This document shows, one piece after another, positions 25,719-63,000 of a stretch of 64,000 bases of DNA (position 1 is its first letter; each line of letters opens with the position of its first letter). Source of the stretch: Hydractinia symbiolongicarpus (lineage: Eukaryota > Cnidaria > Hydrozoa > Anthoathecata > Hydractiniidae); assembly GCF_029227915.1 (NCBI RefSeq), contig NC_079878.1, positions 25,879,501 through 25,943,500 on the forward strand. The letters run 5' to 3'. A program made the translations under genes and the position numbers. The notes under the pieces are model-generated. The model did no database searches. It was not told the DNA's origin and saw only the letters and a program-made list of their open reading frames with translations.

Positions 25719-25771
<53 letters not shown>

Positions 25772-26453: not shown

Positions 26454-26682
26454 AGCGATACTGCAAATGTGAGTTTAGGATAAACTGAACAGAAGAAAAC
26501 CTTATACAAAAATATATTTTTTGACTTATGCTAACTTTGAACTTTCGTTCCGTCGCACTGAACTGAAGTGAAATTTTTTTGCAAGTTTGTGAAACATAAG
26601 TCTGACATTATAAAGGAACTTTTCAGTAAATTTTGTCGTGCTTAATGCAACGCACATTGGATATGACTTGATGCCGTCGTTG

Positions 26683-26762
26683 TTTAGCCGTGTAATTTAG
26701 CCGTGTAATTTAGCTGCGTAATTTAGCCGTGTAATTTAGCCGTGTAACTTAGCCGTATAATT
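26683..26762. repeat. 13-bp minisatellite, about six units
   Basis: Units of TTAGCCGTGTAAT with single-base variants (TTAGCTGCGTAAT, TTAGCCGTATAAT), starting about 230 bases after the paralogue A stop codon. Confidence 0.9.
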
Positions 26763-27010
26763 TGAGTATTCTTATAACAAGATCACCAATTTTACTTCAC
26801 GCATGCGTGGCTTGTTTGTGTTTGATTTTTTTAGCGCGATTTTTTTAGTTTTTTACTGACACTTGTGAACACAGTAAGAAAGGCTTCTCTTTAAATGTTG
26901 ACATAAAAAGCATTATCATCATCTTCTTTCGTTCATGGCAGCCATGATTGTTTTCCTTTACTATTAACCTTGGTTGTTCATTCCTACATAATTAGATACA
27001 CATTATGTAA

Positions 27011-27057
27011 AAGTGCACGTGTGGCCACAAATAATTATAAGTGCACGTGTGGCCACA
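27011..27057. repeat. Duplicated AAGTGCACGTGTGGCCACA motif
   Basis: The 19-base motif occurs at 27011-27029 and again at 27039-27057. Each copy contains CACGTG, an E-box core for bHLH factors, and a TGGCCA palindrome. It lies about 2.2 kb upstream of paralogue B, so regulation of that gene is only a possibility. Confidence 0.6.
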
Positions 27058-29219
27058 TATGAATGCTGTTCGACTGTATAAAGATTTTTGCTAAAATAGT
27101 GCCACATTTATCAATTTCTAATCTACATTTAAAAGATCTTTTTTTTCCAAATATGCTAATTTTTATATCGAAAATGCATCTAAATCTTCAGAAGCAATTA
27201 ACCTTTTCTAAAAAACATAGTGTCTATAGTTATAAACTTCGTTTATAATTTCAGTACTGCGCATGTTTGGTCAAGTTATCAAGTGAGCTTTTAAGGATGA
27301 AACCTCCCCTCAAAAAAGTTCAGAATTTCAAAAGATTTTTTAGCATTACAAACAAAATTTATCCGAAAATACGATGGAACCGAGTATTTTTGCTCAAAAT
27401 GGATTAAAACTCTGCATTGTGACTATTTCAACGACGAACCGCAAATTTAAATACATAGCAACGCTCGTAGCAACCATTTAACAGTTTTTAGTTGGTTTTA
27501 ATTGGTTACCATAAGATTCTAAGCACGGAATTATCAAATTAAACCAAGCCACGAGTACTCACAAAACAGACACTACGACGTATCCTGAAAAGTAAGCAAG
27601 TCAATTTAGCGGGCTTGAGACTTCAAGAAACTTACGAACAGAGATGCTGCAGAAGTCAAATTGACAGTTTCGAAGTTGTACATTTGCGCGTAACAACTCG
27701 TTCGATCCAAAGTAAAATTAATGATCACATAAAAAAATTGCCTCTTTGTTCCTATATCGTATCGTACGTATCCTATAGTCAGTTAAAGTCAGTTAAAGGG
27801 AACTAAATTTTGTCTCACCGACTAACATTTTCACATTGAACAAAAATTGACTTAATGACTTTTGCTGACTAAATTTGCTACCGGATTATGGCTCCTTTTC
27901 CTTTTTAAACTTCATTAAGAACAAAAATTTCTCAAATTTAAGAGAATACAATTTTTGTATATTTTTAGCTTACATTTTGAATTCATTATAAAAACGAGGA
28001 TTTTCAAATCTCCTTCGCATGCATGATTGTTTATTGCTTCTCGTCTCAAAAGAGAGTGAGTCATTAAGAGTGGCTTCTGCGGTCTTGGTAAGACCACTTT
28101 TTAGAAATATGCCTAAGCCTTGTTTCTTTTGTAGCATGTTCCCTGGGTAGTTCCATTGACATAAGTTTGTTTTCGTTTTCGAAAAAATTAGGCATAGTAA
28201 AAAAGCATGTTGAAAATAGTGGTGATATATAAATCTCGTTTTTTGACAATATTTTTTGGAGCAAAATTAGACTAAAAATTGAGCAGACTTCGTAAAGCAT
28301 GTTTTAAATAAAATTTGCATCAAAATGTTAATTTTTGCCATCTTTGTGGCCAAAATTGGTCCAGAAATAAAAAGATTTCCGTTCGATAAAGCTTGGCACA
28401 GTGAACATGATAATAGCACCAACATATTGTTTTTGCCACCAGGTCCAGAATTGGTCCAAATATTAAAAGTACTTCATTCTGACAATATTAGTAGTAAACA
28501 AAAAAGTAGAAACAAAACAAAATGCTAATAATGACATCAAAATCTTGATTTTATGTCACTTAAGAAAATACCATTTTGTGTCATATTTGGTGATAGTTGT
28601 ACACTCAAAACTAATATCAGGCCAGAAATTAAAGTTAAATTGTTTTAACATTTGAACTTCTGCTGCAGATACAACAATATACATTAACTCTCTCGCAATT
28701 TTATCTTTATAAGAGTCAGAAGAAAAACATTTAAATATTTACTTTCGCACTTTTGTTGTTGTATTTGTCTATATTCCGGTTGAGTTCGATCTGATGACAA
28801 TTTGAACTAAATCTGTGTATCTAATATGCGAATGTTGGCTTCTCACAGTAAAAATTGCTTTCTGTTTTCGCTATTTTCTGCTTAATTAGTAAGATTTGTA
28901 AAATTTGAAAATTAGAATATGATACTTTTTCATCGGTAAATCTATATCAGTTGGTGCAAAGATGCATTATATATATATTCCCACCAATAAGTTTGATGAA
29001 AAGAATTTCTATTCAAGTTATCACCTTTACTTTTCATATGCTGTCGCTGCATTAATAATACATAATTATCATTTCCATGTGGTTCCCAAGTCTCTTGTAT
29101 CGTTTGTCCAGAAAGGTAGGACGTGGGTCTTAGTACCAAACATGTGGACATGAAGCTAACTGGTACAGTATATATAGGTTACCTTGTTTCAGAAAATTGG
29201 TAAAAGGGATCAAGTCGCC

Positions 29220-31626
29220 ATGGTAGATTTGTTCCATTTATTCTTCTGTTGTTTTGTCTTTTTTTGTAATTTAAACACAAACACATCAGCTGAAGAATTG
29301 CGTACAAAATCATTCGAAGTATCGTCTTCTAAAGAAAATCCAAAAGATTTGGTCGTCGTTAACACGGTGGAGGATGTTACAGAGATTCAATGTTTACATC
29401 GTTGCAACCTTCACGCAGATTGTGATTCTGTAGGATTTGAGTTGTATGATCAAGAAAGAATTGGGGAATGCTTGCTATTAAGCAAACAAGGCCAGGAAAA
29501 GTTGGGTCCAAATTTTATCTTTTCAGAGCATGAAGTTAATGACTTGAAACTTATACACCAGACGAACTATAAAAGTAAGTTTAAAAATTTTTCTTTTGAG
29601 CCTTTCAATGAGTACGTGGATTATTGCGTGTTATACATTTTTATTTTGCCTGCGTTAGCGCGAGAAAAATGCCCAACAAAATGGCAAATAGGCGCGAAAA
29701 ATCCAGGTACTTGATCCTTTTGAAAATAGTACTTGATACTTTGGAAGGTAGTACTTAATACGTTGGAGGATAGTACTTAATACGTTGGAAGATAGTACTT
29801 AATACGTTGGAAGATAGTACTTGATACATTGGAAGATAGCACTTGGAAGAATATCGGTGCGTAACACATTAAGTTGTAAAATATTAGCCAAGTGGGAAGT
29901 GTGCTTCTTATTTTTGTACAGTTCTTTTCCTAGTTATTTCAGGCGGAGGAATTACTCACTTACCCAGTTTTTAGTAATTAAGAAAGAAGTTTTTCCATTT
30001 TCAATTTCTATTAATCCTGGTAAGCTTTAGTGGAGTCAGCGATAAAAATAACTATAGTAAATTCAAAATGGCAGTCTACTATTCTGTTCTGTGGCTGTAC
30101 AAAATAGTGGAGCACGGAATGTGTGCTAGGGGACAGGAAACAACAAAACATTTTTTATGATGTCAGTTGAATATTGAGATTCTAAAAGAATACAAATTCT
30201 TTTAATTATTTCGTTTTGTTGCCAATTATTTCTTCTCTGTTTCAAGTTCCTAATCCCGATATTGCGACGTCATGCCACAATTTTTCTTTAAAGTGCTCAA
30301 TAAAGTTTCTTCTGCAATTTAGATTACAATAGTTGCAAGGCAGCCTATATTAATGGGGAAAGAAAAAGTCGTGTATATTATCTTAAAGATCTCGGATGGC
30401 ATTTCTGTAATATGGATGATCTGAAGAAATGTGGATCCGGAGGATGGACATTAGCTCTCAATGCGGATGGTCAAAAGGTTGTGTTTTAGCTAAATCGAAG
30501 TTTGATCCCAAAATCCAAGGAAAAGCTTAAAAGAACTTTCCATGCCTGTACATTATAGAGCAAAAGAATGATTATCTAAAATCTAATGTGATGTACATTT
30601 TAATAAGAACAAAAAAATAGCAGGATGTACATTTCATATTCCCAGGTTTTTTGCAACAATGATTCAAAATGGTGGTCACTTTCATATTTAGCATTTTGTT
30701 TTTAATGGCGACGCTCAATCTTGTCAAAAAAACAAAGCAATCTTGTTTTTAAAACGAATTTTTAACCCTAATTAAGGTTGTCCTTAAAATAGTTTTGAGA
30801 CAGCACAGATAATTTCAAGCATAGAGTGCTTGGGTTGATAATGTTTATTTTGTTCTATGGTTCAAAGTTTAATTTTTTCAGCTTAAACACTTTTTTTTGT
30901 AAAAAATTAGCATTATTATTGTTATTATTGTTTCGTTATTATTCTAAACAATAAAGGTTGTTATTGTTTTTAACCTGAAATCCAGTCTAAAATTCTGATA
31001 AAGTATAGGTAACTCTTTTGTCGTATTATGTCAAGGTATAATAATGATCAATATTGTTTAACGAAACCACTTTTTCAATTTAGGCTACATTTGAGTATTA
31101 TTCAGACTACTGGACAAACTCGAAAACTTACAACGTCAACGAGGCAATAAATGATCCGCTCCGCAAAGAAGCAAAGTACAAAGCATTTCTGAATCTTCCT
31201 TTCACCTATATCTGCTTGGGAATGCGTATCGGATCTAATACCAAGTACATCAAACTTGAAAAACCGTACTCGTCATTGTTTCAGCTATTCGCTAATATCG
31301 GAAAAGACGAAAAAAGAACAAATATTGAAGAGAAATATTGGCGAGAACTCGTTCCAGATGGTAGCCTCCAAAGTAAGTGTTTTGAGCAAGGTTTCAACAT
31401 TGAAGCTACAGCAGTGAGTCTTCGGCTTGGTGCGATTGCAGGTAAAGATGATGGCGACTGCGCTAATGATGGTTGGACAGACTCATGGGTAGGAATAGGA
31501 GGAGAAGCAGGATGGTGTACCGATTTATCAGCATTCTCAGCAGGTAGCGGGTGTTGTATGGAGACATTATGTAAAACAGGACCAAATGCACACATTGCAG
31601 GCATTGCCTCTTTGTATATACAGTAA
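29220..31626 (+). CDS. Secreted PAN/apple plus fibrinogen-like domain protein, paralogue B
   Basis: Coding exons 29220-29574, 30323-30477 and 31084-31626 give 350 aa. The start at 29220 aligns with paralogue A and gives a signal peptide (MVDLFHLFFCCFVFFCNLN, cleavage likely after NTSA). An upstream in-frame ATG at 29184 would put charged residues ahead of it. The PAN core (from EDVTEIQCLHRC) is almost identical to A and C. Exon 2 is nearly identical to that of A, including the last bases of intron 1, which indicates a recent duplication or conversion. Exon 3 keeps EYYSDYWTNS, YICLGMRIGS, FNIEATAVSLRLG, DSWVGIGGEAGWC and ASLYIQ. Cysteines in the C-terminal half (GSGCCMETLC) suggest disulphides. 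Intron 1 carries a 22-bp minisatellite (29710-29850). Function inferred as extracellular; ligand unknown. Confidence 0.86.
29710..29850. repeat. 22-23-bp minisatellite in paralogue B intron 1
   Basis: Five to six units of TAGTACTTAATACGTTGGAAGA with small variants, starting just after the exon-1 donor region. Confidence 0.9.
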
Positions 31627-32458
31627 AGCAAAGAAAAAAAATGATTTTATGATACGATGTTTATGTAGAAAGCAAAGAACAATAAAATAGTAATCAAATC
31701 TTCTAATAACATTTCTCGATAAAGTTCTGTATTTACAATTGTACAAAAACAATTAGGAAATAAGAAATGACTTTTAATACAAACACCGCCTAAAAGGTTA
31801 TACGTATAGTTACAGACGAACCATATACGACCTCGTTGTTTGTGAATTAACGACCTTAATTCCCAGGGTTTATATTAATATAAAAATTAAAATACAGTTT
31901 CTTGTATTTTTAGTTGAGTTTCAAAAAAAAAGTTCTAATATAATTACTAGGGATGGGGGTGGGTGTAAGTGGAGAAGTGGTAGAGGACAGGACAAATAAA
32001 AGGGTGAAAGGACACCCTCACCCCTCACTGGATAATTTTTTTTACGTGTTTAATTTCCACTACTAACTTCTTTGGATACTTTTCCTCTGGAAAATTACCA
32101 CATAATATAAATGCCTCTAACATAGTCCCGAATCTATTTACTGCTTACAAATTCTGCGCATAAATATTCCTAAGACTTTTTTAGAAACAGCAGAACAAAA
32201 AATATCTTTCCTAATTACAGCTACATAATACATTGTACCATCCTTGCTTCTTTTAAAAAAATATTATTGGGCATGAGTCTTGATGTAGTTACACACCACT
32301 GTTCCATTCATGCGGAGAATATGTTTCACAACAAACCACATAATTTCCGAATTAACTTAACACGGAAGCTACATGTATAAGTTTTTTCTTTCATAAGAAT
32401 ATACTTTGTAAAAATATTTAAGAATTAGACAAAAAGAGGTTAAGAATATCCTAAGAAA

Positions 32459-32670
32459 ATGTTCATCTTGAAATTTTGGTTACATCTTAAGTTGTGTGAT
32501 TTTTGTTTCTTTATTTGTGTATCCTACCATGGTTTTATTTGAAGTATTTTCTCGCACAAAGTCAAGTTGTCTGTGTGTCAGTTGAATCTCCTAGGTTAAA
32601 TTAGGCTACTTAAATAACAGCTCCTTAGGGATGATTTTTGCCCAAATGTTAAGAAATTTAATTTGAAACA
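32459..32670 (+). repeat. Sequence shared with paralogue C intron 2
   Basis: In order, TGTTCATCTTGAAATTTTG, GTATCCTA, GTATTTTCTC, CTGTGT.TCAGTTG and TTTTTGCCCAAA.GTTAAGAA occur both here and at 37483-37710 inside the second intron of paralogue C. It is either a shared dispersed repeat or the remains of a duplicated, lost PAN gene. Confidence 0.55.
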
Positions 32671-32782
32671 AAATGCATACGGGATTTTAATTTAATAATC
32701 GCTTATACATTCCTCGGTCCTAAGAAAACGTATCACTTCGCATTTATTATAAGAACATTGAACTTTGAACTTTACGTTTTGA

Positions 32783-33080
32783 GACTAATTGGTGGTCTTG
32801 TGGTTAGAGTGTTTACCTCCTTTACGGAAGGTCTTGGGTTCAAAACACGACCGAGTTATGCCTGAGACTATAAGTGTAAATTGATCCTTTTTAGTTAACG
32901 TTCAGCGCATGAGAGATTGACATTTTAGGCATCTGTCTCATTGAGCGATGTGTACCTGCATGCCTTTCGTAGCTCAAACAGGAGCTTTCAATGGAATAGT
33001 AACCCCTTGGCAGAATCTTCATATACCAGTACCATTAGGTACAGAAGAAGCTATCCTGGGTAAATAATAATAATAACCCT
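32783..33080 (+). repeat. tRNA-derived SINE
   Basis: The head TGGTGGTCTTGTGGTTAGAG and the B-box-like GGGTTCAAAAC match the copy at 6606-6785, and CCTGAGACTATAAGTGTAAA, GTTCAGC.CATGAGA and GACATTTTAGGCA follow in the same order. It ends in an AATAATAATAA tail near 33066-33076, as expected for a SINE. This is the longest copy of the family in the window. Confidence 0.75.
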
Positions 33081-35700
33081 AAATAGTTGCGTGAAAAATT
33101 GTAACAAAACTAATCTTACAATACACTACACGCTCTTAAGTAACGCTAATTTTCAGTCGAGCCTCGCTCTTTTCTTTCACCATGTGGAACCTTACATTAC
33201 AGAACCTCATGTTTAATTTGTTGTTGTTATTGTTGTTGTTATTGTTGTTTAAAGTTTAATTTTGTTTATTTGAGGCTAGCTGGTTTCTTTTTTCATAAAT
33301 TTCAGCTTCGTTTTGCTTCTAAAGTGTTGCTTATAAAATAATACAAACTTTGTTCTTTATAAGAACGTGTAAAGATCCTGGAATTTTATTACCCTTAAGG
33401 AAGAAACTTTTACGGGAAGATATTAACCAGAATTTAATTATAATTTCATATTTTTAACGTTTTTTTTTAAATACAAGCTGCTTATTGAGACTGATTGGAC
33501 AGTCTAAAATCTGCACATGTTCTCTTTAAATCATCAAGGGATCTGATCAAAATTCAGACGTCTCATACAATAAATAGAATATCATTCTATCAAAATCCGA
33601 CTATAGATAAGAAGCACTATGGATAAGACTTATCACGGCGCCATCTACATTAATACAGTAAACAGAGTGGGAGAGAGAGGTTTGCTCTTCTAATTTATCA
33701 AATACGATATCTGAGTCACAGCATATCGCAAAGGTGGGACGCGAGACTATGACCAGCAAGCACGATGCAGGGCGTGAAAAATTTACCGCGCCGGACATTT
33801 ATTCATTTCTGTTGGTAAAAATGAATATTATTGTAAACTGGATAATAACATCATATCGTTTACTTTCTTAAAAGAGAGACTCAAGAAATTTGTAAAACAC
33901 AGGTGAGGCGATAGAAATATAATAGAAAGTCTTCTGATCACAACGATAACTGTGTAAAACAACATATACACTTTGAGACCTGAAAATATAAATAGATCAC
34001 CAGCTCATATAAAACCAAAGGCAGATAGGTGGTAGAATTATTTTTCAAAAAGAATCCATAAAAATAGTTAGGCAATGTCAGTGTATTCCTTATGTATATA
34101 TTTAAAACACAGGACACACATTGATAACAGTGTTTCCAACATTGGAGGGCCTATTTCTTGTATAAATATTCGAAATTAATGAAATTATAATAACGAAAGC
34201 TGGACTGTTATTAATACATAGATGCGTATTTGCTTCGTCAGCTTATTGAAGTTAGATTCATGCGCACTGCATGTAAACACGCCGCTCCACTTAATTCAGG
34301 AGAAATGCCATCATAATGTATCTCTTTTATGCCCACATAGAACAATAAGATCTCGATGGAATGAACAATAAATTTTAATAAATAACCTAAAAGTAGCATC
34401 TACTAACGGGGTGGTTACATGAGAGAAAATCATCCCTGCCCGACTGTTATACAAAAAGTTTTCAACACTGCTTAAAATCCACCTTATGATGCCACTACAA
34501 CTGATTTCTCTATTTTGTATAAGAATTTAATGAAAAAGAAAATGTCGATGCTATTTTAGAAACATGACGTACTCAGCCTAAATTCCGTTAAGAACAAAAT
34601 GCAATTCTATAGCTTTAATACTAAGAAAGAATCATATTGAATGCAAAAAAATTCGGAGAAAATAAATTTTAGATATTCTAAATGTTCCAAATGGCCTCAA
34701 ATGAAATTGTTTTTTTTTCTTTAAAAATGCATTATAAAGAATTTAAAGCATTTTGTTTTATCACATAAGGCAAAGCGAGATTGGCGATTGCCGCTCTGGT
34801 GTCAGAAAAATACAAAATGTCCTGGAGTAATAAGCATAATGTAAGCACACTCTAAGCATATCCCAGCCCTGATTTTAAATTTAAACTTGCTTATGAAATA
34901 AAAACCATGTATAACGCCATCTTGTTTTTCTTCTTTTATAGATTTTAAACCTCCACACAAAAAAACAAATACGAGTGATAACCTCTAAATCTCTATCCTT
35001 ATGTGTTCGGTTTTCCCTTGTTTCATAAATTTCAAGACTTTGATAAATGATAAACGTCCGAGGTAAACGTCCGAAGATTAGATTAAAAAAACGTCAATAA
35101 TATTTTGTCCAAAAACACTTTGTCCGGAAAGTTTAGGTTCAAACTGTTTTCACTTATTGTATTTCCGAACAGTTTTCTTTTCCTTTTACTAAATAATCGA
35201 ACGATTTGATAATAAGATAATTCCAAACACCGTTATTTCTTACAGTCCCATAATCGTCTTCACCATCTGTAGTGACTATGGTAAAACTGACCACTCCTTA
35301 TTTTCGGAAAAACAGAAATTATGAAAAAGGCTAAACAAAATCAACAACACAACGTTCTCAACTTCGTTCCCAGGGCATTTTGCTTTTTAATGAATTTCAT
35401 AGCAGAGAAATTATTGGCGACTTCGGGCCATAACCGCTCAGGGGCCACAAGTCCTTGGGGGCGAGGTTAAACGTTCTTGTAAGAAGACGTGTAAGGTGTA
35501 TGTAAAAAAACACGTAAAATTTGAAAAATTCCAGATGATGCACGAGATCATACGTGCTCACGCGACATTTTAAATGAAGTAAACAGACGCAGAGTTATGT
35601 ATTAATTATTAGTTCAGAGATAAAACGCATTATCGTCGCCTGCCTCGATGATATTCAAATAAAAAAGACTCTTTAAATTATTTTTTAATATTTATTATTA

Positions 35701-35850
35701 TTTGATTTCTTTTAAAGAACATAAAATTAATATTTAAAGCACCAAAACTTTCCCGTTGTAATGAAAACTAATTTTATTTGATTTCTTTAAAATATGTGTA
35801 ATAAATAATTTAAACATCACAACTTTATCCTGTTTAAGGAGAATTAATTT
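35701..35850. repeat. 75-bp imperfect tandem duplication upstream of paralogue C
   Basis: The halves 35701-35776 and 35777-35850 both begin TTTGATTTCTTT and share TAAT..TTTAAA.CA, ACTTT.CC.GTT and AA.TAATTTT. The second half ends about 80 bases before the paralogue C start, so it may duplicate promoter sequence. Confidence 0.6.
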
Positions 35851-35928
35851 CATGATGTACAGAACTTGCTGTTGTCAATGAAGCGGTCACATGCACCTAA
35901 AAATAATCAATTTCAACATTGCTTCAAA

Positions 35929-38439
35929 ATGTCTGTGCTTATTATTTTAGTCAGCTGTTTCGCTCTGGCTAATGCAGCCGAAAAAAATGTTCATGAGAAG
36001 AGACACACAGGCAACTTTCGCAGGTCCATTTCACAAAAAGGGCGCGAAAATTTAGTGATTCTAAAGACGGTGGAGGATGTTACAGAGATTCAATGTTTAC
36101 ATCGTTGCAATCTTCATACAGATTGTGATTCTGTAGGATTTGAGTTGTATGATCAAGAAAGAATTGGGGAATGCTTGCTATTAGGAAAGCATGCTAAGAA
36201 AGAAGATGACAAGGGGTTTGTGATGAAAGAGCAAAATGAAGGAAATATGGAATTTCTTGACAAAATTAGCGTTTATCGTGAGTATTTTAAATGAAGAAAC
36301 TTTCGCGAGTAAAATTTCACGATATCAAGGGAAAAAACTTTCGCGAATAGCTACTTTAAAATTTATAATTTTAATGAAGAAATAACTTTCGAGAATTATC
36401 ATTTCATGTTTTTTTGCGAGAAAGGCGTTAACAATTATTTATTCAAAGAAGTTTTGAGAGCTGATTGACAATTACTAAGCAAAACCTTAATCAATAAAGA
36501 TAAATTCAGAATAAATAAAAATTCGCGAAAAGCCTATTTTAATATATTTTCAGAGAATAAATTGTGAAAGTAATTTTTTATTTAGGCAAATTTCCCATTA
36601 CTTAAAAATCCTAAATCTTGCTCTTGGCATGCTATTCTCGTCTCTAAAAATTCATTCCGCGAAATCTTCTTCTCATAAAAAGCATTTGCAATTTTCTTCT
36701 CTTTTATTTCAGCATACCACAGCTGCAAAGAAGCATATTCTAATGGCGAAACAAAAAGTGCTGTGTATTTTTTGGTAGATATTGGATGGCATTACTGCAA
36801 CATGGAAAGTTTGGGAAAATGTGGATCTGGAGGATGGACATTAGCAATGAATGTCGATGGCGAACAGGTGAGCAACTCGTTTGAATTATAAGCAACTGAA
36901 CTGGATTTAAAAAATTATAAAGCAATTTTAATTTTGGAAAAATATAGGCACAGGCAACAAAAAATTTATTTGTTACGAAAATAGACAAAACAAAAGAAAT
37001 GAAAATCCAAAAAATAAAACTTACAATATCTAGATTTTGAGTGAGTTGTTAATGAAAAAAATATTTATTCGCCCATATTTATTTTCACAAAAAGGAGAGA
37101 ATTATCATTTTCTTTTAACAGTGTTGTGTTTCCAGTATTTGAAAGTAGCAAAGCAAATTTTTTTCATTCGCGAAAAATTCTAATGTGATGACATTTTAGA
37201 AAAAAAGGTGTTTGCATTAAGCACGTGACAAACGAACCATGGGAGGAAAGAATACGTAATAAATAATTTTTGAAGAGCGAAAATAATAAATTACCTCTTA
37301 ATTGCAATATCTTAACTCACTTTTATCTTTTCCCAGTCTCCTTTGCAATTCTTTTGTAAATTTAGCATAATATTCATTTTCTTTCATAAAGAATAAGCGA
37401 AGTAATAGCCGTATGATGTCAGTATTCGCAATCTAACCCACGCTTTTTGTAAAAATATATTCTAATTCAAGATGAAAAATATGTTCATCTTGAAATTTTG
37501 CATTCTATATGGAATATAAAAAACAGCATAGATAAACTTGTATCCTATCATTGTTGTAAAGTGTATTTTCTCCTGTTTCGTTTGTAGTATTTTTCTCACA
37601 GAATCTAGTTTTCTGTGTCTCAGTTGCTTAAACAGCGGCTTATAGGTGATGTTTACACCAGTTTGCATTCGCAGATCTTTTAGGATAATTTTTGCCCAAA
37701 GTTAAGAATATTCATGTTGAAACGAGAAAACACTATATTCTTCCAAACAAAACATGTAAAAATTTTCTCCCCATTTTTGCACATTTCTCGAGGTCTTATT
37801 AGCAAATCCAAATTCCTCAATATTTTTTTGACAAATAATTTCTTTCCCTGAGGCATTTTATTTAGCTAGAACGAAAGAAATGTTTTCCAACATTATTTTT
37901 AGGCGACATTCGAATACTACTCGCTGTTTTGGACAAACGACGCCGTGTATAATATGAAACAAAGTTTATCCAATCCTCTCGAAACTGAAGCAAAGTTTAA
38001 AGCATTTTCAACCATGCCCTTCTCCTCGATTTGCTTGGGTATGACCGTCGAATCACGGACAAACTACATTAAATTTGACGAGGAATTTGACTCCTTGCAG
38101 CAGCTTTTCACAACAGTAAACAAAACTAACGTAAAAAGAACAACGGCTAAAGAAAAAGACTGGAGGGAGTTAATCCCAAATTCTTTCCTTCAATCTAAAA
38201 TCGTAGTTCAAGGTTTTAATATTGAAGGGGAAGTTACGAGCGTTCGTCTTGGTGTACTGGCCAACAATATCGGTAAAGGGTGGACACAGGACACTTGGAC
38301 AGATACTTGGCTTGGTGTTGGGTGTGAACCAGCAGTGTGTACAGAGTTGCCAATATTTACTGCTGGAAATGGATGCTGCTTAAAAAGTTTTTGTAACAAT
38401 ACACACATCCCTGCGAGAGCACTTTTATACATCCAATGA
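35929..38439 (+). CDS. Secreted PAN/apple plus fibrinogen-like domain protein, paralogue C
   Basis: Coding exons 35929-36277, 36713-36867 and 37903-38439 give 346 aa. I chose the ATG at 35929 because it opens a clean signal peptide (MSVLIILVSCFALANA, cleavage before AEKN). In-frame ATGs at 35866 and 35878 would add a polar leader. A basic stretch after the signal (EKRHTGNFRRS) could be a processing site, absent from A and B. The PAN core is nearly identical to A and B, while the rest is much more diverged: exon 2 keeps YHSCKEAY, GWHYCNM and CGSGGWTLAMNVDG, and exon 3 keeps EYYSLFWTN, ICLGMTVES, VVQGFNIEGE, DTWLGVGCEPAVC and LLYIQ. Intron phases (1, 0) match. Same inferred extracellular role. 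Confidence 0.85.
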
Positions 38440-45500: not shown

Positions 45501-48500
45501 AGTATAAAAGAATGGTCCAAAGACTTATCTCTTTTGCCTGCCATTTCTCATAAAAAACTACAAAAGTATATGGTAGAAGATACTTTAGAAGTGGATAATA
45601 AATCTAGAGGTGCAATTAAGCACAAAATTCTGGGAAGCAGCTTAGTGGGAACTTATTAAAACTTAAACAAGGAGTAACAATGGCTACTTTGCTACAAGGA
45701 AATGACTATGAGCCTTGCTCTTTTTTCACAACATCTGTGACAAACTGTGAGATGGAAGCAGAGGAAAATGCACCAGTTAGAAAACATATTAATGAACTCA
45801 TTGAAAACTTTAATTTTGATATTGAAAGTACCCTGCTGACAGAGCTTAATCTTAATTTCGTGAAAAATCATTTGAGTGTAACATGCAAAGAAATTAAGAC
45901 TATTGAAGAGAAAACGATAAAGCAATCTAATAGCAAAGCGTGGTTTGCAGAACGAAAAAAAAGGTTAACTGCATCTAATTTTGGAAGTGTAATAAACAGG
46001 CGTAAAGGGGTCTTTCCAACGTCATTGTTGAAAAAGATTTTGTGTCAAAATAAGTCTTTTTTTTCAGAAGCCTGTAATTATGGAATTTCTACGGAAAGTA
46101 TTGCAGTAAAAAAAAATGAATTAGCAAAAGAAGTTACTGTGGAAAAATATGTTTTTTTTTATAAATCCTAAATGGCCTTGGTTGGGTTGCAGTCCAGATG
46201 GAATTGTTAGCGAAACAAAAGCAATTGAAGTTAAATGCCCTTTTTCAAAAAAAAATTTGACGATCGAAGAAGCATGTGGCGACAAAAGTTTTTTTTTGCA
46301 AATGTGTGATGAAGAACCCAAACTTAAACGGAGTCACATATATTATTTTCAGTGCCAAGGTGTCATGGCAGTAACTGGAATTAGTGAATTGGATTTTATA
46401 GTTTATACTGAAAAATTTATGCACATTGAAACTTTAAAGTTTGAGAGTGAAAAATGGAACACGAATTGGTTACCATGTCTGACAAAATTTTATTTTGACT
46501 TTATGTCCAACGAAAGATTTAAAGATACATAGCATATATATTTTTATATAAATTTTATATTCGTATATATATATTGTTTATTCCTCATTCTGTGCTATAA
46601 GTGTTGGAAGAAAATTGACTAAATAACAGCAAATTACCCAGACTTTATATAAATCAGGTGCCATTGACAATGGAAATATTGATTGTAAAATTCTAAAGTT
46701 TTTAACTCGATTAATTGCTCTCTCCACATGAACTCTTACAGAAGCAATTCTTTTAGTTTCAAGTTCTTCTCCCAAATCTAGTTGTGTTTTACCTTTTAGA
46801 AACGCAGGTATACTAAGAGTTACTCCATCAGGTAAATCCTCTTCAATATCGAATCCTCGATCAGCCATTAACGAGTCACCATGTTCTAATAAATTTAAAA
46901 TTCCACTGTGTCGAGTAATTTTTTGGTCACTACTTCTTCCAGCATATAAATCAGATACGAATGTAACTGCTCCACTTGGTGCAATCCCTACCAATCCTTT
47001 AGCAGTGTTGTGATGTTTATAGCTGGAAAAAGTAGCTGATTGGCTGCGGTATGAAGAAGGCATCTCTGTAAATATTTCTGTACAGTCTATTATAACACGT
47101 GTTGTGGGATATAAATCTTTAAAACATTTTGGCATTGTCTCTGCTACTGTTTTTTTTGAAGCCCATATAGGAAGTACTCTCAGTTGAGTGTGCAAAAAGT
47201 CTATCCAAGTAATGAATATTCGACTTACATTACTAGTCGACATGTTAAATCGTATTGCCATATCTTCAATAGGAAATCCACAGCGAAGTCTAATAAGAAT
47301 CATAAAAAATTCTGTTTCAGCTGTTGTAGCTCTGGATCGCCCACGTTTACCATTATAGGTTTTTTTGTTTTTAATGTTAGTATTTGATCCCCAGTATATT
47401 AGAGAGTCAGCAGCTGGTTGTAAATATTCAAGTACAAGTTTAAACATTTCGTAGCTTTCAAAACCAGTGTAAAATTTAAAATGTGCAGTGTTGTGTTTAA
47501 ATCTGTCCACTGTAAATTTATTTTCATCAACTTCTGTTTGTAAAGAATTTATCTCTGCTAATAATGAGTTTTCTTTTTTTGTTATTTCAACTTTCATATT
47601 AGCTATGGTGGCTTCCAATTTTTGAATCTCTTGCTGTAATGCCTCTTCTACAGTCAGCTCAGGATCTTTAGGTTTTTCAGGGGAAGGTAGCTTTCTTTTT
47701 AAACCAAGACTAGTCATGGTGTTTCTTTTTTTAACCGGTGTAGGTGCTATAGTTTTTGGTACAATCGTTGGAATATTGTTCATGTACGTTTTTTTACCAC
47801 CTTCAAAATGAGCAGAGCATACTCTATGGCCTGCTGTTGGTTTAAAGTTTTTTCTACTTATTTTTGAAAGCCAAGTCTTTCTTAAACCTTCATCTTTTGG
47901 AATGACGTAAAACGACAATTCTCTGTTTCTTTTTGAGTTGTTGTAACATAAAGGTACACAACATGTAAATCCTCCCCCAGCTGCAGCGTTTGTTGTTGAA
48001 GTTCCTGGCAAATTCCCAATGTTTGTTTCCCAACGGTGAAATCTGTAGATAAATTGTCTAAGGAAACTTCGATGTTGTTTGGTGAAGTAAAGCTTTAAAA
48101 AAAGCTGTTTTTAGGTGTTGAACAAGCTGATAAAATATCTGTATTAAGTGTTTTTTCTCCTGACGCCTCCATGATTGTTTATGTTTTTGACTACATTTAC
48201 CACAATGCATTGCGAAAACTCTCTTTTACGGGAACGGTGAATTTACATATATTTGTATTTGCAATTTTTTGAGTGTTACGTACACAGAAAGGGAGATAGA
48301 AATAATTTACCTGTTGGATGGTCGGTTGCAACAAGTAAAAAATCGCCACTTGGATGGATAGAAATATCACGCACAGATTCCACTTCCTAAACCAATCAAA
48401 TACCTTAGAAAGACCACCGCCGAAAAACAGGTAATAAAATAAATAAAAAATACTAAAAAATAAAAAAAGCTAGCCACAAGAGAGGGGAAAACCCACAAGA

Positions 48501-51500: not shown

Positions 51501-54500
51501 ACCTTAATAGAGGTGTCAACTGACCCTGTCGCACACAATCGTCCTGCAAGAAAAAATTAATTAGGATAATTCTGTTTCATTCTGTAAGGAAAAGTACAGA
51601 CTTTCTAATTCACGTTGGCACTCGAAAGTCTTGATTCATACAAGCAAATTTTATGTACAGGGGAGAACAGAATATGTATTATCAACGTAAAATAAATTGA
51701 ATAAGGAAATCTGCTGTTTTTTACTACTCCTTACCAATTATGTCCTCGCAGCAAATTGTTACCATTTGCTTAACATTTTGGCAAACTTTTTTAACATTCA
51801 TAATCACAGACAGCATACATACCATCTGGAGTGAATGCTGCTGAAGTCACAGGTCCTTTGTGTGCAGTTACATAATGTGTTTCGTACTGAGCAACTGGTG
51901 GACTGGTACCATATCCTATATAAAAAAATTAAACAAAAAATAGATGTATTTCAAATTAAAAATAAGAACCACGTGTACTTTAACTCAAGAGATTTCCATG
52001 CTGTGCGCAAAATATAAACATTTGTTGAACATATGTTAAATTAACATAATGGAATTAAGTATTGGAGTCAGTTTAAATGTCAACTTTGTGTTTATACACA
52101 TACATTTTTTGGATGAGTTACATGCATTTCTTATTCCTTTGTTTCTTGTTCTTGTAGAAAATTTTAGCCACACCAAAACTTATTTGCAGTTTTGTTGCAA
52201 TGTATTGAATATCTTGTCGATTAAGCTTTCCACTTTTCTGAAAGAAATACTCTGTCAAAATTTTCTTTGTCTCAGGAGTTAATACTGTCCTCTGCTGTTT
52301 TCGCTTCACAAGTGATTTTACATCCCCACTCATACATGCTTCATAAATTCTTTTGCGTTCTGTTTTAGATTTCTTGAAAAATTTCATGATGTTCTCAATA
52401 TTCACATTCGCTCTACTCAGTGTTTCACTACTGGAATAATGTTTGTTTTTATTTAAAAGCTCAGATAAGTAACCTTGTGTTTTTCCAATGCTCGCCTTTG
52501 CAAATATAGTTTGATTGATTTGTTGGGAGTAAATTTCTTTCATTACAAGTGCATGCAAATCAGTCATTTGCTCATCCTTTAAACTAACTTTTGACAAATT
52601 TGAAATACAAACGTTTTGACAGGTGCTGACAGAGTTTAGATCAAGTTTCAGTGAAAATTTTGTAGGATAACTTTGAGTGTTAATAAAACATGAGTTTCTG
52701 GCTGTATTAATCTGGTCTTTGTGATCAAAACCTTCTGGATAGGACATCAACAAACTAGAATTGCCAACTTCTGTAATATTTTGCTGCGGCAGTGTTTCTG
52801 ATGTCGCTAAAACTGTGTCAGTATTGCTCACAATTATACTACTTTCATAAGAAACATGCTTCAGAGGATAAAAAGATTGGTTTAGCTTTGTGGTTGGAGA
52901 TTTTATAATATCGTTGGAGCTTAGGGAAGAAACATCCCTATTCCACATTGTTGTACTTAAATCATCAATGTTTACAAAATCAATTTTATTATGGTATTGC
53001 TCATAAGAGAACTTAGAGTTTATTCCGGTTGTATTTATGTCATAATTTGGAGTAGAAGAAGCATTTTGTAGCCATTGCTTCGTAGCATTAGGACAATTCT
53101 TAACCAGTACTGAAGGAATAAGATCCAAACTGCACAAGAAGTCCAGTTTTGTTTCAGGCATGTAATGATGACTGTCATCAGATTGATTTTTTAAACAGGA
53201 GTTTTCACTAACGCCAGCAGAAATTTGTGAAAGAAGATCTAGATTTCCAAACAAGTCCTCTGCTTGTATATTAACGTGGACATTATCTGTACAATCAGTT
53301 TTCTCCACTCTATGCTCTTGTAGCACATCTACAAACAGAATGAAATAAGAGCTTCAAATTAAAACTTTATCCTTGCAAAACAATGTGATAATTCATAAAA
53401 AGTTATCAAAAATTTACGGGATTATTTCATTCTGTCAAATAGATGTTCTACGGTTCAGGAAAATATTTAAACGTACCTTCTTTTTCGTATTCGAGATCTA
53501 ATCCAGTTTTGATATTAGTTTCCAAACCTGTTGCTTCAGGTTGTATCGTCGGGGTTAGACCTGGTAATTTTCTCTGTTCTGGTTCTTTTCCTAAGAGATA
53601 TCAAAATGTTAGATTATATTATTATAATTGAAGATTCAAACAGTATTGTCACCTCTGCAAAAACCTGGCACACTTTTGTTAATAAACTCAGAACCATAAA
53701 TAGGATGATGCTTAAACTCTTAGTAGCAAGTTATTATCATTTTGGCTCAGAAATATGAAAAAAAAATAACTCCAAAAATTTTCATAGACCATGGCCTTTT
53801 TGAAAGACACTGTTTTATTGTTTCTTAACGATTTGACATATGAATAACATGATGTACTGAAATTGTTATCTTTTATATTTATATATTTAAAATACTTTAC
53901 AGAGCTTGTGTACTTGGGTCTTTTATCCCCTTTCTACATTTGAACTTTATAACTAAGAGTTCTATATATGCGAAGGCCCACATAAATCTATTATGAAATA
54001 AATAAAAAAACAAGCAATAAGTTCAATAATATGATTTCAAAATAATAATTGGCACCTCAAAAAGCTTTAAATTAGGCAAACTAAGTGTTAAAAAATGTTA
54101 TTTTTTCAATAATCTTTTAGAAAGCTAAAACTAGTCAAAAACTAAAAAAATATGCTGACATTAGCAAAAAATTTTGTTATTGGGGTAGGACATTTTTATA
54201 TTATTGCTCTGCTGTTACAGCATTTTTATGTATTTTGCAAATAAAACATGCGAGTAAGTTAAGTAAGCCTTAAAAAAAATCTACTTTTTGAGGAGAATAG
54301 AGGAGTTTTGAGTTGTGACAACCCTATTATAAACACTTTTTTATAACTACTTGAAAAGTAAGTAAGTAACGGGAAGATTTTTTACATACAATGCATTTTA
54401 TAAACGAGTGTAGAATTACACAGTTGAAAACAAACCTGCTTTTTCCTCCTGCAAGCCAAGTTTCAAAACTTCCAACAATCTAGATGAAGGTGCAAGTGCA

Positions 54501-55707
54501 AGGTCTTCTAAACCCACACATTTTGCTAAACTTGATGCAATCAGGTCAAGTGCATCATAACGTAGTTGACTAAAATAGGAAACAGAAATTAGACTCTCAA
54601 AAATATTTTAAAATACTTGCCGTCCATTAGGCACTTAAAAACTGGGGGCTTTGTAATTAAAAACAACATTATAAACGCACCTTTGATCATGGTTACCCCT
54701 GTCCAAGTAATTTTTTTTGAGTTAACATGTAGGCAAGGATGCACGAAATGGCAATGTGGGAAATATGTACGATGGGCGAACCACAGTGAAATTTTTTGTA
54801 GGCTAATGACTAGTGCTACAAGAATACGTGTAGGTAGTTTTTTACTTAAATAAAGTTGGTTTAATCGATAACATTGAATGCAAAAGTAGGATAGCTTTCT
54901 TCTTGTTCGATTCAACGAATTTCATCTAGATGGAAACCCACCTTTAATTTATTTATCCTTGGTAAAGATAATATCAGGAAAAACAGTGATCATCTCTTCC
55001 ATACTTATAGATCTTTACGTTTTATCAATTTGGTATCTCTGAATATGATCAAATGACCAATATGCAAAGAATGTTTGAATTTTTAAAACAACAAGGTTTT
55101 CTTTAGTTTTAAAAAGGCATATTTTTTCTTAAAAAGCCCAAATTTTATGGGGGCTGGCATATAGCATGCCTAATATTTTATACGAAGCATGCTATACCAG
55201 AAACAAGTTTTAGATAAATGACAAGTAAAAATTTGTAAATAGAACCAATGTTTCAAATGTATATATATTTAAAATTTTGTTAGTTAGGCATGATAGCAAT
55301 TCAATTAGAATATAGCAACTTAAGCAAAAATAAAGACTGTCTTGAGGGCCTTTTATTTTTGCTTTAGCTAATAATGCATGCCAAAAAAAATTGGTAACAC
55401 CCCTTAATGTGTATATAATACCTTAGATCAGTTACAAAAATTCATGGGGTTTTTTAAAAACAGCCCAGAAGTGACTATTTCGGATCATCTTTTAAAAAAT
55501 CAACGAAATAGAACACAAACCATACATCAAGAAAGTTTTCAAAAATAACTTTTCAGGTTTTACAGTATTTTCTGATATTGTTAAAATGTGACAAACTTTT
55601 ATGTTCTCCAGCAAGGCCAATGACAATAAAGATTAGCTGTAAAAATTTTCAGCATACCTAATTATCAATTTATACATAGTTTCCTGATCTTCGACAGCTT
55701 CAGCCAT
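42560..55707 (-). CDS. CSTF1: Cleavage stimulation factor subunit 1, CstF-50 (16 coding exons)
   Basis: CstF-50 is the WD40 subunit of the nuclear complex that directs pre-mRNA 3'-end cleavage. Coding exons from the start: 55658-55707, 54436-54569, 53477-53590, 51823-51915, 51503-51543, 51042-51173, 50362-50484, 48311-48386, 44813-44892, 44654-44713, 44320-44382, 44102-44134, 43950-44004, 43361-43444, 43111-43191 and 42560-42666. All phases agree; the product is 441 aa against 431 in human. The N-terminal dimerisation segment (MYKLIISQLRYDALD) is followed by YETHYVTAHKGPV, ATGSVDTSIK, MLAKAAQSQ, VIAFHP, SIHPSGDFLL, RLYDLTTLQCYVSANPEDQH, YVTASKDGSWKLWDG, TSGRDSTAKLWELS, FPDEKNMAIGCWDSRTAE and a final SEDYRARFWYCRDS. 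Introns 3 and 8 host other genes (52118-53328; 45089-48243). An acceptor-like site just upstream of the ATG suggests a 5' UTR intron. Confidence 0.97.
45327..46532 (+). pseudogene. YqaJ-type recombinase/exonuclease of the transposon, frameshifted
   Basis: Three consecutive open frames. 45327-45659 encodes an acidic N-terminal part ending near AIKHKILG. 45680-46171 contains AWFAERKKRLTASNFGSV, a hallmark of YqaJ domains. 46149-46532 contains NPKWPWLGCSPDGIV, AIEVKCPF and HIYYFQCQGVMAVTGI, the catalytic D..E.K-type core. The second and third are one domain split by a single-base change in a run of nine T (46152-46160). The first and second are also in different frames around 45630-45680. No SWIM-type zinc-binding cysteines are seen between them. 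The catalytic residues survive, so decay or assembly error is recent. In the living element this would be the partner nuclease of the transposase. Confidence 0.82.
46578..48011 (-). CDS. THAP-domain DDE transposase
   Basis: An uninterrupted 477-codon frame. Residues 15-90 form a THAP zinc finger (CCVPLCYNN, then RVCSAHF, then NNIPTIVPKT; C2CH pattern). A coiled coil of about 45 residues follows (near 120-165). A helix-turn-helix is near 230-270 (IRLRCGFPIEDMAIRFNMS). The DDE nuclease has VIIDCTEIF, SYKHHNTAKGLVGIAPSG, SLMADRGFDIEEDLPDG and VHVERAINRVKNFRIL, so all three acidic residues are present. The frame is open upstream to TTG 48011 but the first in-frame ATG is only near residue 77, after the THAP zinc ligands. 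A small upstream exon (an ATG at 48171 opens a short frame) or a frameshift is therefore likely. Convergent with the YqaJ gene. It may still be active if the start is intact. Confidence 0.88.
   Translation of the reverse strand: MPGTSTTNAAAGGGFTCCVPLCYNNSKRNRELSFYVIPKDEGLRKTWLSKISRKNFKPTAGHRVCSAHFEGGKKTYMNNIPTIVPKTIAPTPVKKRNTMTSLGLKRKLPSPEKPKDPELTVEEALQQEIQKLEATIANMKVEITKKENSLLAEINSLQTEVDENKFTVDRFKHNTAHFKFYTGFESYEMFKLVLEYLQPAADSLIYWGSNTNIKNKKTYNGKRGRSRATTAETEFFMILIRLRCGFPIEDMAIRFNMSTSNVSRIFITWIDFLHTQLRVLPIWASKKTVAETMPKCFKDLYPTTRVIIDCTEIFTEMPSSYRSQSATFSSYKHHNTAKGLVGIAPSGAVTFVSDLYAGRSSDQKITRHSGILNLLEHGDSLMADRGFDIEEDLPDGVTLSIPAFLKGKTQLDLGEELETKRIASVRVHVERAINRVKNFRILQSIFPLSMAPDLYKVWVICCYLVNFLPTLIAQNEE
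50196..50257. repeat. 31-bp tandem duplication in CSTF1 intron 7
   Basis: Two copies (50196-50226 and 50227-50257) of AAGTATTGAAATAGTAATAA followed by an A-run and CCCTA. Non-coding. Confidence 0.8.
52118..53328 (-). CDS. CUT-homeodomain protein or alternative CSTF1 terminal exon
   Basis: A 402-codon open frame on the CSTF1 strand within CSTF1 intron 3. Residues about 256-340 match a CUT domain (LVMKEIYSQQINQTIFAKAS, then IGKTQGYLSELLNKNK, then RIYEACMSG). Residues 341-402 are a homeodomain (QQRTVLTPETKKILTEYF, helix 3 with KIFYKNKKQR; N51 kept, F48 as in ONECUT proteins, K50). The protein would bind DNA in the nucleus. The first 250 residues are Ser/Asn-rich and unrecognised. The frame begins at an acceptor (polypyrimidine then TAG, exon from 53328). 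No in-frame ATG exists before codon 56 (53161). The acceptor is phase 1, the phase CSTF1 exon 3 donates, and lies 148 bases from it. So it is either an alternative last exon of CSTF1 or a nested gene starting at 53161. Confidence 0.85.
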
Positions 55708-60000: not shown

Positions 60001-63000
60001 ACTAAATAATCAGGGTTACCATCATATTTTACATATTCGGACATTTTTAACAAACTTAAAACTGCCTGAACATTTTTTCAAAAACCTTAACATTATTTTT
60101 GTGACAGAAGTTTCTAGGATCACTGGAATGCAAAGAGACTTAATTTAGCAAAACTTTTTTCAGAACTCCAAATTCACTCTTTTTTGTTGTATTATGGTGA
60201 GTCAGCACCACAACCCTTTACTTCAAGTATTTTTCTTTTATTGTGAACAAAAAAAAAAGAAATGAAAAAGTGCAGTTTTAAAACATATATAAATAATTTT
60301 AGTGAGTTTGGGATCAATGAAAATCTCAAAATTTAATTTGACAAATAGCCTAAGCTCACCCTTGCATACACCATTTTTGGCAAAGTCGCTATGAGGGCGG
60401 CATCATACGTTTTTTCGCCTGTAACTGCCTGAAAAAGCATAGGCCTGTCCAAAACCGCCAGAAATGCAACATGCGCGAGCTTATTGTTCTTATTTAAATT
60501 TTGTGGAGAAGAAGGAAGGTACTATTTTTATTACAGCCATTATCTTCCATTTCTACATTTTTTAGAATTCTTAAAACTAAATGCAGGTTCTTTTTTGCAT
60601 GTTTTTTTTTTTGTAAATGTGAAACATGCCTGAAAGAAGCATTTTAAATGAGTCAGCCATCGCATTGTAATCATCACCGTCATTACAAGGAGGGTGCTGA
60701 TAAGCCGCATGTCGTAAAAACCGCGGGCGTTTTTGGGGGAGTTTAGCGTTTTAACCCTTCCCGCCCCAGGCATTTTTTAACACATTATGTCCCTGATCCC
60801 AGGCGTTTTTAGCAAAAAAACACATTTTTCGTAACTTTTATAATATTAGTCTAAAATAAACCTTAACAACTAATTTAAAGCATATACTATGTTTAAAATG
60901 CATGCAAGGTATTTCTCTTTTTTTAAAAATGGCCATAAAGCATTATCTAAGTCCCGGTTCGACTCCGGTAATAGACAATTCAGTAAGAATTGTAAGTATA
61001 TAAAAGGAAAGTTGGCAATCCGTCTATTAACCATGCTTAGATTGTGCTTATTGGACCACAACCTATGCTTAGTTAGTGCTTTAGACCAGCAAATAATAGG
61101 AATGTAAGAGGAACTTCTTATCAAATATATAAAACATAATTTTGAGATATATAAATCATAATGTATATACTAAACGTTATCGGTTTCTCAGTTCTCTATT
61201 CGGACATCATTTGAATATATTTACCAATAAAATCTTTATAATTATGATAAAGTTGTCACACTCATAAGATGATTCTCTTCCCGGTCGTTTTCTCTTAGGA
61301 GTATTATTTCGCTGATCCATTTCCCTTCTGTCGGGAACACATACAAAAACTCGGGTTTTTTTTCCTTCTTGAGGTATTTTTCTGGGGAAATGTCTACCAG
61401 AAAGTCTGTGTATTTCTAAAGAATTAGAATTAAAATTGACAGGAGCACAAGGTGGAGTAAGAGCATTAGTAGATTCTTCCACTAATTTACGTATCACAAT
61501 TATTCGAAAGTCTGTTTGGGAAATTCGTTTTCTAATTACATTATTATCACTTGCCATTTTCCATTCACGGTATAAGATGAATGCATTCACCATGGCTAAA
61601 TTAATTAGGCGAAAAAAGACTTTCTTCCACCATTTGAGGCTTCGGCGTGAAAATGCAGAATACTGTAGCAGTTGATCGCAACAAGCTTGTTATCATATGT
61701 CATTGCAATTGACTCGCCTTTCTTTTTAAATTTTGCTGTTTTTATTTGAACAGGCAAGCCTTTACGAGGTTGACTGGTACCACATGCTGCTGTTTGGTGT
61801 TGCATACGAAGGTTATAAAATAAGGAAGGAGAGGAATAGAAATTATCCATATACAGAATATAACCTTTACCAAGATGATTGTGCAAAAGATGCATGACTA
61901 AGTCATAGGTTTTACCATACTGAGAAATGGGCGGAGCATCGTCAACTTGGCCAACATAAATATCAAAGTTGATACAATATCCATTATCTGAATCACACAA
62001 TTTGTATGTTTTAATACCATATTTATCTGGTTTGTTAGGGTTGTAAACCTTGAATGAAATATTTCCTTTGAATGGGATAGTCCCTTCATCAATGGACAAA
62101 TGAAGGTTTGGTGTCCACACTTCTGCAAATGTTTGTTGCAACATTGGCACTAAAATTCCAAGTTTTTTCTTTGGATTGTAACCCGGTTCACCTTTTGCTG
62201 GATAATCATCATTGTTACAGCAATGAAGGAAAGACATGATGTTATAAAAATCCATTCTTGACATGACAGTTCTTGGAAATGGAGTAGAAATAGTAGTGTC
62301 TGTTGACCAATAAGACTTTAGTAACTCTTTTTTTACTATGCCACAGCATGCGCTAAATCCAGTCGCCATCTTTGTTTTAATTTTGAAATGCAAATCTGCA
62401 TAACTTACGGTACCCAAATTTAAAAATTGTCAGATCGGGCGCAAATGAGAGCTAAATTATTCTAGTGTTAAAAAATTAGTTTCAAAGATACCGGCCGGCC
62501 GTGAGGGCCGTTCAAAGTGGTCCTAGTAAAATCCCGGACAGGTCCGGGATCGCGATTATTTTAGCGTAGCAATATCCCGGACTAGTCCGGGAACGGGACG
62601 GGAAGGGTTAAAAAAAATTCAAATATTCCCAGAAAAAACCAGCATAGGCCCAAACAATGCCCCCAAAAAAGAAAACGGACACTAATATATGATAAAGAAC
62701 TATAAAAATTAAAATAAGCTTACTATGTGGTAGCGAAGTTCTTAAAAGAAATGTTTTTGATGGTTTTTGACAAATTTTACTTTATAAATATAATATAAGC
62801 ATATAGCTATAAACTTTATTAACTCATTTCTTTTCAAGCGACTTTTTCCCAACTATAGTCCGCATGGCATGTTACAACAAATTGCATTTCGGGAATGTTT
62901 CGGGGAGTGCGGAAAAGTGCGGGCAGTTTTGGACAACAACTGCCAATTTAATTTGAAAAGTTGCCAGAACTCGCCCTTATATGCGGGCGTTTGCGGCTTA

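Follow-up and report, generated by a model that had tools for sequence, protein, structure and literature searches.

The DNA analyzed, hereafter called the window, is a stretch of 64,000 nucleotides from the genome of Hydractinia symbiolongicarpus (480.9 Mb; the contig carrying the window is C4 of that genome set). The gene CSTF1 lies on its minus strand. All 441 residues of the protein P0010, named "cleavage stimulation factor subunit 1-like" from H. symbiolongicarpus at NCBI with no isoform tag in the name, were mapped exactly onto 16 exons separated by GT-AG introns. Among 19 CSTF1-family matches across the genome, 12 are at this locus, and the other seven reach at most 43.8 bits and 42% identity. 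Because these seven are all weak, CSTF1 appears to be single-copy. Intron 3 of CSTF1 (53476-51916, phase 1) contains an exon for a CUT domain and a homeodomain, here called the CUT exon, which leaves 148 bases of the intron on its 5' side and 202 bases on its 3' side. The features of this part of the locus are as follows.

55658..55707, minus strand: coding part of CSTF1 exon 1 with the start codon, from the exact spliced map to P0010
54436..54569, minus strand: CSTF1 exon 2, with a phase 1 donor; exons 1 and 2 encode the dimerisation domain (residues 4-59)
53477..53590, minus strand: CSTF1 exon 3, phase 1, with the top-scoring donor of the 15 in CSTF1 (leave-one-out)
53329..53476, minus strand: mini-intron of 148 bases between CSTF1 exon 3 and the CUT exon
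52118..53328, minus strand: CUT-homeodomain exon, a predicted alternative terminal exon of CSTF1, with its stop codon at 52120-52118
51823..51915, minus strand: CSTF1 exon 4, which carries the competing acceptor

A first-pass annotation had placed a CUT-homeodomain frame inside CSTF1 intron 3 on the same strand, and the open frame, the Pfam domains and the exact map of CSTF1 agree with this placement. The minus strand is free of stop codons from 53353 to the end of the frame at 52118, which gives an open frame of 411 aa. The longest stop-free run by chance was 168 aa in 40 dinucleotide shuffles of the whole window, and chance as the source of the 411-codon frame was rejected. The following elements are recognized within the exon.

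53219..53245, minus strand: NLDLLSQIS motif, kept as NLxLLS in homologs, 5' of the first in-frame ATG
53159..53161, minus strand: earliest in-frame ATG, whose Met is the 56th complete codon past the acceptor
53015..53149, minus strand: conserved KLDFLC...TGIN block
52343..52561, minus strand: CUT domain (Pfam PF02376), with five predicted helices at a block pLDDT of 63-91 and the SATB1 and ONECUT2 folds
52127..52300, minus strand: homeodomain (Pfam PF00046), with FYKN at positions 48-51

Both domains exceed the curated Pfam cut-offs (CUT, E-value 4.4e-9; homeodomain, 1.2e-7), and the Pfam matches, the predicted model and Foldseek all place the CUT domain upstream of the homeodomain, which is the arrangement of the CUT class. 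A Pfam scan of the entire frame gave no match at the KLDFLC...TGIN block. The AlphaFold2 model (mean pLDDT 52) is confident only at the CUT helices (residues 257-333) and the homeodomain (351-400), with pLDDT by block of 63-92, and its N-terminal part is disordered or unsolved. Foldseek with this model returned four matches at E <= 0.001, the DNA-binding domains of ONECUT2, SATB1, HNF6, and SATB2.

The architecture resembles that of the ONECUT proteins HNF6 and ONECUT2, in which a single CUT domain is followed by a homeodomain with Phe at position 48 and Asn at position 51. Only one CUT stretch was found in the exon with Pfam. A profile search of PDB gave ONECUT2 (3.5e-17) and HNF6 (7.6e-17) as the best matches, with a Cux-2 chain (4.5e-4) among the matches listed. 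A single-sequence search of PDB gave SATB2 and SATB1 as the best, and no ONECUT chain was among its six matches. Position 50 of the homeodomain is Met in ONECUT (FFMN; PMC4901127), while it is Lys in 11 of the 12 rows of the CUT-homeodomain alignment and Arg in P0017. Assignment to ONECUT was considered and rejected: the architecture and residue 48 fit, but residue 50 does not and the single-sequence search favored SATB. The hosting of the CUT exon by CSTF1 is another difference from ONECUT.

Joining of exon 3 (donor at 53477) to the acceptor at 53328 is in frame and gives a product of 502 aa. The first-pass annotation had pointed to the phase 1 of the CUT frame, the spacing of 148 bases and this in-frame join, and all three are confirmed. 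One correction applies: intron 2 is likewise phase 1, so an in-frame join of exon 2 (54436) to the CUT exon is also possible. The only mapped upstream exons on the strand of the CUT exon are those of CSTF1, and exons 2 and 3 both donate the phase 1 that is needed. It was also correctly proposed that the dimerisation segment of CSTF1 lies within the joined part, since exons 1 and 2 encode it.

Eleven database proteins share the CUT-homeodomain region: P0001-P0009 were found in a first search, and P0017 and P0018 in a second one that scored 7993 candidates sharing most words. A protein search with the alignment A2 yielded seven proteins, all already known, among 7992 candidates sharing most words. 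The 11 homologs are presumably of cnidarian origin. Searches for related DNA gave 13 pattern matches in the genome contigs and 72 in the viral contigs, and no relative was found among either with tblastn. P0001 is the closest homolog, with 371 of 403 residues identical to the window exon from the acceptor on and no indels. Its identity is 58/61 in the stretch before the KLDFLC...TGIN block, 45/45 in the block, 71/73 in the CUT domain, 130/147 in the linker, and 50/58 in the homeodomain; the homeodomain is therefore not better kept than the linker. The remaining ten homologs show 22-38% identity. In a tree of the 12 CUT-homeodomain rows, two of nine inner branches were well supported and P0017 could not be placed.

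The conservation bears on two alternatives in which the encoded protein is of little or no importance. One is a decaying or silent insertion without function. It is consistent with the equal conservation of homeodomain and linker against P0001 and with the fact that no annotated isoform was found in protein clusters at 90% identity, but the 411-codon open frame, its alignability to 11 homologs, ten of them at just 22-38% identity, and the confident prediction of both domains argue against decay, and this explanation is the most improbable of those considered. The other is a regulatory terminal exon, which would divert CSTF1 transcripts and lower the CSTF1 level by feedback, with the protein being secondary. 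The precedent is CstF-77, in which a conserved poly(A) site in intron 3 attenuates its own gene according to the level of the polyadenylation factor, and the short isoforms are without detectable protein (PMC3708835). An exon with a regulatory role only should have no reason to retain an indel-free frame with the identities to P0001 given above for the CUT domain, the KLDFLC-TGIN block, and the homeodomain, and this alternative is also very unlikely.

A terminal exon needs a poly(A) site before exon 4, and a hexamer scan from the stop codon of the CUT frame to exon 4 detected neither AATAAA nor ATTAAA. One related hexamer is present.

52091..52096, minus strand: TATAAA, the sole AATAAA/ATTAAA/TATAAA hexamer between the CUT stop and exon 4, beginning at the 22nd base past the stop

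That TATAAA is the only near-canonical poly(A) hexamer would suit the decaying insertion as well. The roughly 560 bases that follow the stop codon of CSTF1 also lack AATAAA and offer only ATTAAA.

The 5' part of the exon is informative about translation. The first-pass annotation had stated that there is no in-frame ATG before codon 56, and this holds. The window has NLDLLSQIS at codon 28, ahead of any in-frame Met, and NLxLLS is seen in 7 of 11 homologs. These seven carriers represent four lineages, because P0005, P0007, P0008, and P0009 are near relatives. Six of the seven have no Met between the NLxLLS and KLxFLC motifs. Among the homologs without NLxLLS, P0003, P0004, and P0006 are predicted to begin past that point, just before KLxFLC, and P0017 lacks the motif. 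The KLDFLC...TGIN block is strongly kept across the family, with the exception of P0017. P0005 and P0008 read through apparently the same acceptor in the same frame (LFLFVG-LQE, compared with FILFVD-VLQE). Immediately 5' of the acceptor, the translations of the window and P0001 diverge over a short stretch (SSYFILFVD vs MQALYFILFVD), as expected if a coding boundary is located there. The conservation 5' of the first ATG suggests that the start codon is in an upstream exon, unless translation begins at a non-AUG codon.

The chief rival explanation is a nested separate gene, in which a CUT mRNA of its own, made by spliced-leader trans-splicing at 53328 or from an internal CSTF1 promoter, is translated from the ATG at 53161. 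Spliced leaders are present on some Hydractinia transcripts (PMC11067881), and the CUX product of the CASP/CUX locus of C. elegans begins at its own internal codon (PMC11789633). The first ATG sits right before the strongly conserved KLDFLC block, where the starts of P0003, P0004, and P0006 are also predicted. In P0002, P0007, P0009, and P0018 the predicted start Met is 5' of NLxLLS and may lie in the exon, so that translation of the exon alone would be possible in these proteins. Conservation in the window nevertheless extends 5' of this ATG, with NLxLLS in the homologs and mostly no Met between the two motifs; the 148 bases between exon 3 and the acceptor offer scant room for a promoter and a first exon; and one homolog, P0017, is joined to CSTF1. 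A separate CUT mRNA is regarded as rather unlikely.

P0017 is an EukProt gene model of 450 aa that contains a CSTF1_dimer domain (E-value 3.5e-19), a CUT domain (2.2e-10), and a homeodomain (1.1e-4) whose score is just below the cut-off (22.4 vs 22.9 bits). The join in P0017 follows LEYETE and that in the window would follow LEYEKE, so the two agree within one residue of the predicted place. Lys follows the join in P0017, and the G of a phase-1 junction would not encode Lys, so the phase in P0017 may differ from that in the window. The CUT-homeodomain part of P0017 is very divergent, with an end branch of 4.77 in the tree of 12 rows. Because of this divergence, its orthology to the window exon rests mainly on the common host and place, and P0017 is a single gene model that could be falsely joined. 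A search for Hydractinia proteins with the CUT exon in NCBI and UniRef, covering clusters at 90% identity and in part about 8000 candidates sharing most words, found none. The fusion of CSTF1 with the CUT domain and homeodomain that the first-pass annotation had proposed is partly supported, by the joined model and by the conservation 5' of any in-frame ATG of the window's exon.

The acceptor at 53328 had been described as good in the first-pass annotation. It is middling instead, with a log-odds score of 4.0 in the range of 2.6-8.6 for the 15 CSTF1 acceptors (leave-one-out), only 3 of which score lower. Four of the 90 AGs scored in intron 3 outrank it, and of all 6729 AGs in the window, 8.6% have a score at least as high. 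The top AG of the intron is the acceptor of exon 4, under a model trained on the CSTF1 acceptors including that of exon 4. An alternative acceptor at 53109 has a higher score (5.96) but was rejected since its use would cut the conserved KLDFLC...TGIN block. AGs at 52919 and 52237, inside the CUT exon, also outscore 53328.

The mini-intron contains a perfect 14-bp inverted repeat, in which 53435-53422 pairs with 53348-53335.

53422..53435, minus strand: 5' arm of the inverted repeat, whose complement lies in the polypyrimidine tract of the CUT acceptor
53335..53348, minus strand: 3' arm of the inverted repeat, inside the polypyrimidine tract of the CUT acceptor

The fold of the 148-base mini-intron, to which the repeat contributes, beats 199 of 200 shuffles (z -3.0). 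A perfect 14-bp repeat arose in 2 of 5000 shuffles of the mini-intron. At a limit of 160 bases, the 64-kb window contains three perfect 14-bp repeats, of which two are neighbors near 2.2 kb, compared with 0-2 in 20 shuffles. The repeat was spotted post hoc during folding, and the statistics on the hairpin are uncorrected for this. The last 20 bases 5' of the CUT acceptor have a mean predicted unpaired probability of 0.12, the lowest of 16 acceptors; the 15 of CSTF1 span 0.29-0.86. The folding energy of the 148 upstream bases is -29.5 kcal/mol for the CUT acceptor, and one CSTF1 acceptor is lower (-31.5). The predicted pairing and low accessibility suggest that the hairpin could keep the CUT acceptor off by default and serve as a possible switch.

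Taken from the DNA and protein sequences, the CUT exon is probably a functional, conserved single-exon CUT-homeodomain gene in CSTF1 intron 3 that serves as an alternative 3'-terminal exon and gives a CSTF1-CUT-homeodomain fusion. Default splicing of exon 3 to exon 4 would yield CSTF1, with the 14-bp hairpin putatively masking the CUT acceptor. The predicted join of exon 3 to 53328, combined with use of a candidate poly(A) site before exon 4, would yield the fusion. Exons 1 and 2 would supply the dimerisation domain in full (residues 4-59, with 2xz2 and 32pv as solved relatives), and the fusion may therefore dimerise via the CSTF1 segment while binding DNA. A comparative survey (PMC3287031) describes the dimerisation domain of CSTF1 as binding the polymerase II tail as well. 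Being without the WD40 propeller, the fusion might pair with CSTF1 and not bind CSTF3 normally. Since a single unbroken exon holds both DNA-binding domains, its source may be an old ONECUT-like gene, retroposed or without introns for another reason, that CSTF1 captured. If the fusion is real, a transcription factor in this laboratory animal would depend on how a polyadenylation-factor gene is spliced and where its transcript is polyadenylated.

A bolder version of the fusion reading can be formulated, in which the CSTF1 fusion is the sole form of an ancient cnidarian transcription factor. The N-terminus of CSTF1 would let this factor dimerise and perhaps contact the polymerase II tail, while the CUT domain and the homeodomain would bind DNA; melting of the RNA hairpin that masks the acceptor would turn it on, and each cell would pick which to make from one pre-mRNA, the polyadenylation factor or the transcription factor. 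In this complete form the proposal is a speculative one and rather doubtful.

Two known systems, CUX1/CASP and CSB-PGBD3, each show half of the arrangement. At CUX1/CASP (ceh-44/cone-1 in C. elegans), one locus yields, through common 5' exons and alternative splicing, both a CUT homeobox protein and a housekeeping protein unrelated to it, and the CUX link is described for protostomes and deuterostomes (PMC11789633). For the CUT exon, common 5' exons are a prediction that draws on the in-phase acceptor in the window and on one joined gene model elsewhere. The host differs: CASP is a golgin, whereas CSTF1, identified by its exact map of 441 residues, is a polyadenylation factor. CUX also has several CUT domains over several specific exons, in contrast to the one CUT domain and homeodomain in one exon here. 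If the fusion is true, CUX1/CASP would have a counterpart, a second CUT homeobox gene linked by common 5' exons to a host unrelated to it, and the pair would offer a test of why such links persist.

In CSB-PGBD3 of primates, an intron of the host holds an unbroken reading frame that is used as an alternative 3'-terminal exon, giving a fusion to the N-terminal part of the host (PMC3902484). Intron 3 of CSTF1 likewise holds an unbroken frame whose 3' splice site is in phase. The cargo in PGBD3 is a piggyBac transposase, and in CSTF1 a homeobox gene. The relatives of the CUT exon are so divergent as to suggest that this exon is far older than the PGBD3 case. CSTF3 (CstF-77), a gene of the same complex, shares an early intronic choice of the 3' end, in intron 3, with feedback (PMC3708835). 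It differs in that no protein was detected from its short isoform, for which the available text of that report mentions no DNA-binding domain. By analogy with this precedent, feedback of the fusion on CSTF1 or on polyadenylation is possible.

A CUT-family search of the whole genome gave one match, the exon in CSTF1 intron 3. The search was six-frame, its loose first pass let through one candidate, and the same method recovered CSTF1 exon by exon. A very divergent second CUT domain may be present elsewhere in the genome. The report of the Hydra viridissima genome (PMC7642931) states that CUT class genes were not found in medusozoan genomes. Its Pfam table gives one CUT domain each for H. viridissima, Hydra vulgaris (v2), Aurelia, and Morbakka, three for Clytia, and none for an older H. 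vulgaris set, so that five of the six medusozoan sets contain CUT domains. If these domains belong to the same gene, the text and the table would be reconciled by an exon in CSTF1 with a divergent homeodomain. The main text of the Hydractinia genome report (PMC11067881) counts 71 homeodomain genes in H. symbiolongicarpus, with seven classes resolved, CUT not among them, and seven genes unclassified. The CSTF1-hosted gene may be one of these seven or may be missing from that set, and concealment of a CUT-homeodomain gene within CSTF1 would account for the absence of the CUT class from such Hydractinia and medusozoan surveys. A homeobox survey of Nematostella (PMC1779571) includes one putative CUT gene, nearest to ONECUT. 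The CUT class is not mentioned in the available text of two other cnidarian genome papers (PMC9444052 and PMC13137736), and a limited literature search by title or opening of the abstract found no report of a CSTF1-CUT fusion.

Several other coding frames are present in the window. Intron 8 of CSTF1 contains an open 510-aa frame of a THAP and DDE_Tnp_4 transposase on the CSTF1 strand (46581-48110, minus strand), and adjoining it on the opposite strand are two overlapping frames with matches to a viral alkaline exonuclease and YqaJ (45620-46532, plus strand). The region 23535-38439 (plus strand) probably contains three related tandem genes in which an exon of 178-180 aa (TFEYYS...) recurs; Pfam at E 0.001 matched neither the first copy of this exon nor the first copy of an exon upstream of it. 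A transposase frame of the piggyBac kind (DDE_Tnp_1_7) is located at 61608-62429 on the minus strand.
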